Shown in pieces: positions 11,936-14,828 of a stretch of 64,000 nucleotides of DNA. The first letter of the stretch is position 1; every line of letters begins with the position of its first letter. Below the pieces are notes generated by a model. That model worked only from the letters and a program-made list of their open reading frames with translations, ran no database searches and was not told the origin of the DNA. Source of the stretch: Actinoplanes sp. NBRC 103695 (GTDB taxonomy: Bacteria > Actinomycetota > Actinomycetes > Mycobacteriales > Micromonosporaceae); NCBI RefSeq assembly GCF_030269485.1, contig NZ_BSTL01000013.1, positions 124,001 to 188,000 on the forward strand, given 5' to 3'. The position numbers and the translations under genes were made by a program.

Positions 11936-12673
11936 CTGCTTGACGGCCACGCCACCCCAGAAGGCGTCCGGTACGTCCTCCGGGGTGTCGGCGTCCGGCA
12001 GCCAGCGCGCGACGGGCACGATGCCCTCGGCGGTCGGCGTCCACCGGCCCAGCAACGGCGCGAACGCGGCCGGCTCGCGCATATGGAACGCCGGGCCCAT
12101 CATCGCCAGCGCCTCCGGGTGGCCGGCCAGTTCGGTGGCGTCGAAGTCGAACAACAGCCGGCTGCCGGCCGGGACCGCGTCGTACAGGGCGTCGAGGGCC
12201 CCGGCGAGCGTCGCGTCGTCGAAGAACGCCGGAAGTCCGAACAGGACCACGCCGAGCGGTTGCCGCTTCCGGTCCGGCAGCACGCGGTCCAGGACGGCCG
12301 GGTCGATGCTGTTCGGGTCGGTGACATCGCCGAGCGCGTAGTCCACGCTGTCCAGCCCGTCGAGCAGCTCGCGTCCGACGGCGACGATCCGCGGGTCGAG
12401 ATCGGTATAGAGCACGCGAGCCCCCGGCGCGGTCTCGTGCACGTTGGCCTGTGTCGGAACGCCGGCGCCGAACACCAGGAACTGGCCGACGCCCTCGCCG
12501 ACGGCCTGCCGCACCGCGCGGCCGGAGAAGGCCCGCAACGACCGGAAGATGTCGGCGCACGGCCGGTACGCCGACTCGAACGCACCGGCGGCCGCGACAT
12601 CGATCGGGTGATGGTGGACCCCGCCGAGCCAGTAGTCGATCATGCGTGCCGTGCTGGGCGCCTGCGGTTCCAC
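11930..12673 (-). CDS. S-adenosyl methyltransferase, DUF574 family
   Basis: A protein of 247 residues of the actinobacterial family PF04672. It has the family signature PSTARMIDYWLGG at the N-terminus and FLVFGAGVPTQANVHE, the variant SAM-binding loop, near residue 88, then VLYTDLDPRIV (acidic residue after strand 2). The family has many paralogues in this group and no known substrate. The GTG start is 23 nt from the GTG of the divergent gene and has no ribosome site, which points to leaderless translation. Confidence 0.85.
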   Translation of the reverse strand: MEPQAPSTARMIDYWLGGVHHHPIDVAAAGAFESAYRPCADIFRSLRAFSGRAVRQAVGEGVGQFLVFGAGVPTQANVHETAPGARVLYTDLDPRIVAVGRELLDGLDSVDYALGDVTDPNSIDPAVLDRVLPDRKRQPLGVVLFGLPAFFDDATLAGALDALYDAVPAGSRLLFDFDATELAGHPEALAMMGPAFHMREPAAFAPLLGRWTPTAEGIVPVARWLPDADTPEDVPDAFWGGVAVKQA

Positions 12674-12679
12674 CCCGAC

Positions 12680-12689
12680 ACTCTAAGAT
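12680..12689. promoter_or_regulatory. Overlapping divergent -10 elements of two leaderless genes
   Basis: On the plus strand TAAGAT (12684-12689) lies 7 nt before the GTG at 12697. On the minus strand TAGAGT (12685-12680) lies 6 nt before the GTG at 12673. Both fit the TANNNT consensus and the spacing of leaderless transcripts. The two hexamers share two bases, so the two polymerases should exclude each other. Confidence 0.5.
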
Positions 12690-12696
12690 CTGTCCG

Positions 12697-13431
12697 GTGG
12701 GGTGGGAAGCGCTCGACCGGTGGGGTGACGACGTCACTCGCCTCGAACCGCTCACCGGCGGCGTCGCCAACGACGTGTGGAGCGTGCGCCTCGGCGGGCG
12801 CCTCGCGGTCGGTCGTCTCGGTTCCCGGAGCGACGCCGATCTCGCGTGGGAGACCGAGCTCCTCCAGCACCTCGACCGTTCGGGTCTGACCGTGCCGGTG
12901 CCGATCCCGGCCACCGACGGCAGGCTGTTCGCCGACGGCCTGGTGGTGATGACCTACCTGGACGGTGGACCGCCCGAGACGGACGCCGACTGGCGTCGGG
13001 TGGCCGGCACGCTCCGCGAGCTGCACCGGCTGACGCGCGGCCGGCCGCAGCGCCCCGGCTGGCGGTCGTCGACCGACCTCCTGCACGCCGGCACCGGGAC
13101 GAAGGTCGACCTCGGCGAGATGCCAGCCGAGGCCGTCGCCCGATGCCGGGCGGCATGGGCGCGGCTCGCCGGCCGTGAGACGTGCGTCGTGCACGGCAAC
13201 CCCACCAACCCGGGCAACATCCGGATGACCGCGGACAGGGTCGCGCTGATCGACTGGGACGAGTCGCACGTCGACGTCCCCGACCTCGACCTCGTGCTCC
13301 CCGGCAACGCCGCCGACCTGGCCGGCGCCACACACGACATCGCCGCGCAGGCGTCGGCCGCCTGGGAGGCCGCCGTCTGCTGGGACGACGCGTACGCGGT
13401 CAGGCGGCTCGCCGAGGTCCGGCCGCTCTGA
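12697..13431 (+). CDS. Aminoglycoside-phosphotransferase-like protein with altered catalytic loop
   Basis: A protein of 244 residues with the APH/choline-kinase-like fold: N-lobe LTGGVANDVWSVRLGGRLAV, and in the C-lobe VVHGNPTNPGNIRM followed by ALIDWDESHVDVPD. The second motif supplies the metal-binding Asp. In the first the usual H-G-D of the Brenner motif reads H-G-N, so the catalytic base Asp is Asn. The protein may be inactive or act on something other than a hydroxyl group. GTG start, leaderless promoter (see 12680). A role in resistance cannot be claimed. Confidence 0.75.
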   Translation: MGWEALDRWGDDVTRLEPLTGGVANDVWSVRLGGRLAVGRLGSRSDADLAWETELLQHLDRSGLTVPVPIPATDGRLFADGLVVMTYLDGGPPETDADWRRVAGTLRELHRLTRGRPQRPGWRSSTDLLHAGTGTKVDLGEMPAEAVARCRAAWARLAGRETCVVHGNPTNPGNIRMTADRVALIDWDESHVDVPDLDLVLPGNAADLAGATHDIAAQASAAWEAAVCWDDAYAVRRLAEVRPL

Positions 13432-13475
13432 GGAGGTCCGGTTGGGGCCCGCGGTGCCGAGCTTTCCGCCGTTTT

Positions 13476-13562
13476 CGCTGGGCGTGGGTCGGGCCCGGCT
13501 GCCATGGCGGCGGGGGTGCCTACTTGCTGTCGCTGCCGCCGCTCGCGGCGGTAGCCGGGCAC
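13476..13562. repeat. Left arm of an 87-bp inverted repeat
   Basis: This 87-bp stretch is, read on the other strand, about 85% identical with 13793-13879. It begins cgctgggcgtgggtcggg and ends gtagccgggcac. The two arms enclose about 230 bp with seven copies of a GTGGTAG heptamer. No gene is seen in it. Confidence 0.8.
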
Positions 13563-13792
13563 GCAGTGGTAGACCCCAGCGCGAGTGGTAGACCCAGCCA
13601 CCAGTGGTAGCCCTTGGCGGTATCCGTCCTCGAATACCGTCCTGCGCTACCACCATCCGCGATCGTGGCAGCCAGCAGCGGTATCGCGATCCTGAACAGC
13701 GTCCGGTCCTACCACTGCCCGCCCGAGTGGCAAGCCCGCGACGATCCGGCCCGCAGCCCACGAGGGGAATGCCGCCCCGGGCTACCACCCTC
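13563..13792. repeat. Spacer of the inverted repeat with GTGGTAG/CTACCAC heptamers
   Basis: The heptamer GTGGTAG occurs three times in the left part (near 13567, 13585 and 13603) and its complement CTACCAC three times in the right part (near 13648, 13710 and 13782), with a fourth at 13801 in the right arm. The sites on the left therefore point toward those on the right. No convincing reading frame is present: frames here have no ribosome site and no family resemblance. Confidence 0.65.
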
Positions 13793-13985
13793 GTGCCCGG
13801 CTACCACCGCGAGCGGCGGCAGCGACGGCGAGCAGGCACCCGGGGGGCCTGGCAGCCGGGCCCGACCCCACGCCCAGCGTAAGCGGCGGCACTGACGGCG
13901 AGCAGGCACCCGGGGGCCTGGCAGCCGGGCCCGACCCACACCGGGCGCAAGCAGCGACGGCGAGCAGGCACCCGGGGCCTGGCGA
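13793..13985. repeat. Right arm plus three tandem 62-70 bp repeats
   Basis: The right arm (13793-13879) is followed by two more, partly shortened copies of its second half. The core gacggcgagcaggcaccc recurs at 13824, 13894 and 13956, each followed by a ggcctgg-type stretch; the first two copies continue with cagccgggcccgaccc. The array ends 15 bp before the stop of the phzF-like gene. It is non-coding by all signs seen. Confidence 0.8.
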
Positions 13986-14000
13986 AGCGCTGGCGGCCTG

Positions 14001-14828
14001 TCAGGGCGTGCGGTGGAGGGTGCCGGTGAGGGTGGTCCTCGCACGGCCCCGGAGCTCGACCCGCCGGCCGTCGCCTGTGGATACATGGAGGTGGCCACCG
14101 CGGGGTGAGAGCTGGCGCGCCCCGAACTCGGTGCCGAGCTGGGCGCTCCAGTACGGGCCGACGGTGCAGTGCGCCGAGCCGGTCACCGGGTCCTCGGGGA
14201 TGCCGTACGCGGGCGCGAAGTACCGCGAGACGACATCGTCGCCGCCGGCTCCCCGCGCCGTCACGATCAGGCCGCCGGCGGGCAGCTGCTCGACCGCGCG
14301 CAGGTCCGGCGCCAGGCGGCGCACGGCGTCCTCGTCGGGCAGCACGGCCAGGATGTTGCGCTCGCCGACCTCCGGGTGGTCGGTGATTCCGGTCCACACC
14401 GTGTCGACCTGGCCGAGCGCCTGAGCGAGCCCGGCCGGCGGACTGAAGCTCCGGGCCGGGACGGCCGGGAAGTCCAGGAGGATGTCGTCGTAGTGGCGGC
14501 GGGCGGAGAGCCGGCCGCCGAGCGTGTCGAACTCGACGGGGCGGTCCGGGTCGGCGTGCCCGCTTTCCCACAACCAATGGGATGCGGCGAGAGTGGCGTG
14601 CCCGCACAACGCGACCTCCGTGGTCGGGGTGAACCAGCGCAGAGAAAAAGGCCCGTTCCCGGGTACGACGAACGCCGTTTCGGACTGGTGCAGTTCGTTG
14701 GCGACGCCCCGCATCCACGATTCGTCGGGAAAGGCGTCCAGCACCAGCACTCCGGCCGGGTTCCCGGAGAAGGGCGCCTCGGTGACGAACGCGTCGACCA
14801 CCGCGACAGCTTGATCGGAGAAGGACAT
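14001..14828 (-). CDS. PhzF-family isomerase/epimerase
   Basis: A protein of 275 residues with the PhzF/diaminopimelate-epimerase-like double fold. Marks: VVDAFVTEAPFSGNPAGV at the N-terminus, the catalytic Glu in LHQSETAFV (about residue 50), TPTTEVALCGHATLAA, and EDPVTGSAHCTVGPYW in the second half. The best-known member isomerises a phenazine precursor, but most members in bacteria have other, unknown substrates and there is no phenazine cluster here. Single gene; 33 bp separate its start from the divergent M15 peptidase. Confidence 0.85.
   Translation of the reverse strand: MSFSDQAVAVVDAFVTEAPFSGNPAGVLVLDAFPDESWMRGVANELHQSETAFVVPGNGPFSLRWFTPTTEVALCGHATLAASHWLWESGHADPDRPVEFDTLGGRLSARRHYDDILLDFPAVPARSFSPPAGLAQALGQVDTVWTGITDHPEVGERNILAVLPDEDAVRRLAPDLRAVEQLPAGGLIVTARGAGGDDVVSRYFAPAYGIPEDPVTGSAHCTVGPYWSAQLGTEFGARQLSPRGGHLHVSTGDGRRVELRGRARTTLTGTLHRTP

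Follow-up and report, generated by a model that had tools for sequence, protein, structure and literature searches.

A probable end-worn member of a MITE-like, foldback transposon family with arrays of a slowly changing heptamer between two convergent genes of Actinoplanes sp. NBRC 103695

The window analysed here is a 64-kb stretch of the genome (G000:C13:124001-188000), which is available as a draft of 10.8 Mb in 180 contigs. Region 13432-14000 of this window is filled by a repeat element flanked by two convergent stop codons. In NCBIfam the product of the left flanking gene matches only APH(9)-Ib, weakly (E 1e-4), and a Pfam search gave nothing. The features of the locus are as follows.

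12550-13431, plus strand: phosphotransferase-like gene on the left flank, with an uncertain start codon (open reading frame 12451-13431); its stop TGA (13429-13431) abuts the element
13432-13441, plus strand: GGAGGTCCGG, probably a vestige of the left terminal inverted repeat (GAGACTCTTCGCGGTGGAGGTCCGG), from comparison with young-copy ends
13466-13563, plus strand: left arm of the inverted repeat, of the tandem ~70-bp unit type (98 nt, 79% complementary); similarity to other copies starts here
13566-13572, plus strand: heptamer GTGGTAG, iteron 1
13585-13591, plus strand: heptamer GTGGTAG, iteron 2, 19 bp after iteron 1
13604-13653, no strand: core dyad 1, GTGGTAG (13604-13610) facing CTACCAC (13647-13653), spaced 43 bp
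13665-13715, no strand: core dyad 2, GTGGCAG (13665-13671, one mismatch) facing CTACCAC (13709-13715), spaced 44 bp
13782-13788, minus strand: inverted iteron heptamer, 73 bp after dyad 2
13801-13807, minus strand: inverted iteron heptamer, 19 bp beyond the one at 13782
13792-13889, minus strand: right arm of the inverted repeat, pairing with 13466-13563
13874-13978, no strand: two extra tandem arm-unit copies, 13874-13916 (88% identity) and 13936-13978 (84%)
14001-14828, minus strand: right flanking gene, PhzF family isomerase (Pfam PhzC-PhzF, E 1.5e-52; NCBIfam TIGR00654); its stop TGA faces the element

The arms, separated by 228 nt, had been described in a sequence-only reading of this DNA as 87 bp long and about 85% complementary; those 87 bp are their inner part. 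The same reading had correctly placed two further tandem copies after the right arm and three GTGGTAG heptamers on the left (13566, 13585 and 13604); on the right there are four CTACCAC copies (13647, 13709, 13782 and 13801) and not three. Dyad 1 encloses an inner palindrome, GCGGTAT/ATACCGT, and dyad 2 starts 18 bp after its second heptamer. The window as a whole contains 13 heptamers versus 2.8 expected, a number reached in none of 100 shuffles.

The repeat is far beyond chance, as had been claimed from the sequence, and it belongs to a dispersed, high-copy family. A blastn search of its own genome returned 219 matches in about 40 places, the nearest relative being C8:161059-161585 (94%). 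The core-centre motif CYACCAC-N11-GTGGTRG occurs 83 times in this genome versus 6 times for a reversed control. The 19-bp heptamer pair was counted 246 times here, whereas each of 67 congeners has none or one. Allowing for imperfect copies, we estimate the family at 80-100 members, a figure that is not a full count; about 80 copies, most of them found with the window copy as query, were read together with their flanks. Copy number is underestimated, since contigs begin or end inside element copies (L299, L300, L301 and L302, on C11, C60, C13 and C17, respectively), and these repeats thereby break the draft and limit its assembly. A scan of other genomes' contigs for triple iterons (own genome excluded) found five stretches in unrelated taxa, the same scan of viral contigs found none, and a search of plasmids and phages for the element gave no match.

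Comparison of copies reveals a fixed core surrounded by variable layers. The core consists of a heptamer, 43-44 bp, an inverted heptamer, 18 bp, a heptamer, 43-44 bp and an inverted heptamer, and 37 of the first 40 copies conform to this '> 43 < 18 > 44 <' geometry (with at most two mismatches per heptamer). Outside the core, heptamers recur every 19 bp, in direct orientation to the left and in inverted orientation to the right, in numbers from one to nine, the left and right counts varying independently among copies. The copies read contain 627 heptamer sites, including 243 iterons and 223 dyad members. Dyad sites extend as GTGGTAG-n2-CaG-n-GCGgtATc, whereas iterons show little conservation past the heptamer. 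The iterons are bordered by inverted arms built from ~70-bp tandem units, then by additional inverted tandem layers, and the ends come last; such long inverted arms built of tandem repeats, whose units visibly expand and shrink locally, are characteristic of foldback-like elements. No gene was called inside the element copies examined.

The outermost inverted motif led to a young subfamily of seven copies (L164, L186, L187 and L294-L297) of 0.78-1.24 kb, GC-rich and with unrelated flanks. They share terminal inverted repeats of about 22 bp (GAGACYCTTCGNGGTKGAGGTC; family ends GAGACTCTTCGCGG). All seven start with C-TA-GAGACTCTTCGCGGTGGAGGTC, with the variants GACACTC in L296 and TGG for TAG in L294, and finish with GACCTCAACCTCGAAGGGTCTC-TA-G, with small variants in L187, L296 and L297. 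An eighth copy, L082, has similar ends and is more diverged; most older copies, including that of the window, have no recognisable ends. The window copy is an old, end-worn and truncated member of the family: its left end is probably reduced to the ten bases directly after the stop codon, and comparison with the young copies reveals no recognisable right end.

Of the 14 borders of the young copies, 13 carry the tetranucleotide CTAG. These borders are equally compatible with duplication of TA, as by an IS630-like mover, and with duplication of CTAG, as in MITEPsy1. The sequence-only reading had proposed a search for flanking target duplications, and no empty site was found for comparison: at L161 (a symporter/PD40 pair) the neighbour was not conserved in 29 congener loci, and for the window locus the closest PhzF among the congeners has only ~55% identity. 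The duplication is suggested by the two borders of the copies and is not proved. A second CTAG precedes three young copies in the form CTAG-T-CTAGAGAC or CTAG-A-CTAGAGAC (L164, 3720-3745; L187, 3360-3380; L295, 2450-2470), possibly as a relic of a former insertion that was excised, or of an older copy next to them. Unrelated insertion sequences, of the IS630 type and of a 1.5-kb PF01609 type, also lie at or beside CTAG (L316, L317, L354, L355, L356 and L358), which indicates that several mobile elements of these genomes share this target.

The window contains only 12 CTAG versus 159 expected from base composition, a 13-fold depletion. In L093, L164, L187, L294 and L297 the TAG of the border CTAG is the stop codon of the flanking gene, and the stop directly before an element end is TAG in 15 of 20 cases versus 112 of 442 other stops (p = 8e-6). 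The orientation of the flanking genes is also biased. According to simple GC-frame gene calls, which miss some genes, the 66 element-bearing gaps comprise 31 convergent, 31 tandem and 4 divergent pairs versus 88, 229 and 110 among 427 other adjacent gene pairs (convergent excess, p = 2e-5; divergent deficit, p = 1e-4). On these calls, the elements favour the 3' ends of genes and avoid divergent promoters. The pneumococcal BOX, RUP, SPRITE and IS elements show a convergent bias too (PMC3049150), and placement alone therefore shows no function.

The search of related genomes proposed at the outset revealed relatives in one congener, G021. It has an element family of its own with the ends CTAGAGATCTTTCGTGGTCGAGGTCCG, likewise located at stop codons, and 36 matches to the end pattern allowing up to three mismatches; no comparable excess of the end motif was found in the other congeners. 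The G021 arms are similar enough for blastn detection and the core differs. Repeated GTCACGC sequences in G021 were considered as an iteron array and rejected, since they belong to the 70-bp arm units and form no 19-bp array. The heptamer core is absent from all 67 congeners. Recurrence of ends and arms in G021, with the heptamer core confined to the species of the window, suggests that the ends and arms are probably older than the heptamer core. In another congener, G002, L031 (976-1673) contains an array of roughly nine tandem units of 71 bp, similar to those of the arms, without a recognised end or heptamer core.

Neither end-pattern searches nor the Y1, DDE_3 and DDE_Tnp_1 transposases of the draft assembly yielded an autonomous partner with the element's ends. 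The IS630 (PF13358) and DDE_Tnp_1 (PF01609) transposases of both genomes were rejected as partners because their ends differ: the resident IS630 ends (GTGCGTTG...) are unlike those of the element, and matches to element ends near IS630 and PF01609 transposases are at chance level. No partner bounded by such ends came to light either: the remaining end-pattern hits that were examined are element copies, contig ends or isolated occurrences. A REP/REPIN-RAYT system was likewise discarded, with zero matches to PF01797 (Y1 transposase) in the genome.

The family can be placed among known repeats by its individual traits. The seven young copies share terminal inverted repeats, and the family is gene-less and of high copy number, as are MITEs. 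MITEs are usually short (under ~600 bp) and AT-rich, which is typical of them but not strictly required; this GC-rich element of 0.78-1.24 kb is neither. Like the element, REP and REPIN sequences are interspersed intergenic palindromes with a GTAG-containing motif; they are mobilised by RAYT (Y1) transposases, and the element differs from them in its inverted ends, its CTAG borders and a genome without Y1 transposase. The pneumococcal RUP is a derivative of IS630/Tc1-mariner elements. Unlike such derivatives, the element has ends that do not resemble the IS630 ends of either genome. Its CTAG borders recall the preference of IS630 for TA inside CTAG (Tenzen and Ohtsubo 1991, cited in PMC2170065), and the resident IS630 copies L316 and L317 also begin at CTAG. 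In Pseudomonas syringae, MITEPsy1 generates a four-base duplication, CTAG or YTAA (PMC3189936), and it resembles the element in its inverted ends, lack of a gene and CTAG insertion; however, it is 100 nt long with 18-nt ends and has a related insertion sequence (PMC3189936), whereas the element is 0.8-1.2 kb, repeat-rich and has no partner found. Like BOX, the element is modular and interspersed, with a variable number of internal repeats, and is over-represented between convergent genes (PMC3049150). BOX elements are 67-637 bp with predicted RNA folding (PMC3049150), whereas the element has a palindromic heptamer array, inverted tandem arms and a different sequence. Long inverted tandem-repeat arms and many copies of a short internal site, here predicted to be bound, recall foldback-like transposons such as Drosophila Galileo, which has many transposase sites in its tandem-repeat arms (PMC3688188). 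Galileo is, however, eukaryotic, with a P-superfamily transposase and sites in the arms, whereas the heptamers are central and their binding is putative. The family is ordinary in kind (MITE/foldback) and unusual in architecture; a limited search of the open literature found no description of a bacterial foldback architecture around a regularly spaced site array.

Taken together, the inverted ends, CTAG borders, unrelated flanks, numerous copies and gene-less interior strongly support the small non-autonomous mobile element that the sequence-only reading had listed among its possibilities. With a probability of roughly 0.85, the locus carries an old, end-worn copy of a non-autonomous, MITE-like DNA transposon family with foldback architecture. 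Against this stand the failure to find an autonomous partner among the transposase families searched, the absence of an empty site from the loci compared, the lack of recognisable ends in most older copies, and a length and GC content above those of typical MITEs. A transposase supplied in trans would cut at the ends and join the element into CTAG, with duplication of TA or of CTAG. Given the scarcity of CTAG elsewhere and its frequent overlap with TAG stops, insertions would land on stop codons or between them, and the family would be an example of a repeat that reaches stop codons through a CTAG preference. Slippage may change the number of tandem units, and copies such as that of the window would have lost their ends and retained their heptamer sites.

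Two rival explanations fare poorly against the same data. The element could be transcribed and function either as a structured RNA or, between convergent genes, as a bidirectional terminator of transcription. The window element folds very stably on both strands (z = -11.1 on the plus strand and -10.5 on the minus strand relative to shuffles), convergent placement would suit a terminator, and one heptamer pair shows G-T in 14 copies and A-C in 2, a weak hint of RNA. However, the folding energy of the core is equal on the two strands (-77.7 and -77.3 kcal/mol), two-sided change affects only 2 of 24 consensus pairs and there is no Rfam match, so that the structured RNA proposed from the sequence is not supported; half of the copies are found between tandem genes, and the iterons need no pairing, their left and right numbers varying independently. 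We regard such a function as very unlikely, and incidental transcription termination by the element as possible. A local duplication without function, the outcome foreseen for an element that occurs only here with nothing kept in relatives, would fit the local expansion and shrinkage of tandem units, but the scattered copies, which share ends and CTAG borders in unrelated flanks, refute it, as do the ends and arms of G021; its probability is close to nil.

The heptamer itself is constrained. It changes about 4-fold more slowly than other core columns. On a maximum-likelihood tree of 46 core sequences, parsimony assigns each heptamer column 0.94 changes on terminal branches versus 4.09 for other non-stem columns, and 0.29 versus 2.35 on internal branches; the tree is limited to 144 columns, and most copies were retrieved with the window copy as query. 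Across 15 independent sister pairs, differences amount to 3.2% at heptamers versus 12.0% at other non-stem positions (p = 1e-9). On long terminal branches the values are 0.66 versus 3.06, and for G/C columns alone 0.29 versus 3.2, which excludes base composition as the cause. The heptamers are probable protein-binding sites, of a transposase or of a host protein. For a transposase, many short sites would give specificity, as proposed for Drosophila Galileo. A cluster of protein-binding sites had also been suggested from the sequence; in view of the 627 sites, the strict spacing and the slow change it is plausible and compatible with mobility, whereas nothing shows the organisation of DNA with which it had been coupled.

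The present role of the arrays is a separate question from their mobile origin. It is possible, if rather unlikely, that the host now retains these transposon-derived arrays because a DNA-binding protein of the chromosome uses the heptamer clusters, with selection maintaining the sites in immobile copies; they could then organise the chromosome or separate convergent transcription units. The slow change on long terminal branches points in this direction, as does the strict 19-bp and 43/18/44-bp spacing, which extends to diverged copies. In copies without recognisable ends, departures from consensus are 4.6% at heptamers versus 23.6% elsewhere, in a class that is approximate, as some copies scored 0 on one side where the script left a minus-strand core unlocated; this perhaps reflects retention after mobility was lost. 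Some of this divergence may, however, date from a time when the lineages were still mobile, and the two youngest informative end-less pairs (W/L060 and L071/L072), with too few changes to decide, do not show heptamers visibly spared. The confinement of the core to one species also argues against host retention, and convergent gaps are also where parasitic repeats are usually tolerated (PMC3049150). The bolder proposal, that the 80-100 transposon-derived arrays have been recruited as dispersed landing platforms for a species-specific DNA-binding protein that acts on the chromosome, with selection keeping the sites after the ends decay, is speculative and in our judgement unlikely. The family offers a test case for host retention of transposon-borne sites, and its more than 600 natural heptamer sites are a resource for finding the putative DNA-binding protein. 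At L298 (2619-2670), a lone core dyad (GTGGTAG...CCACCAC) lies within the final part of a 304-aa reading frame, shortly upstream of a complete copy of the element.
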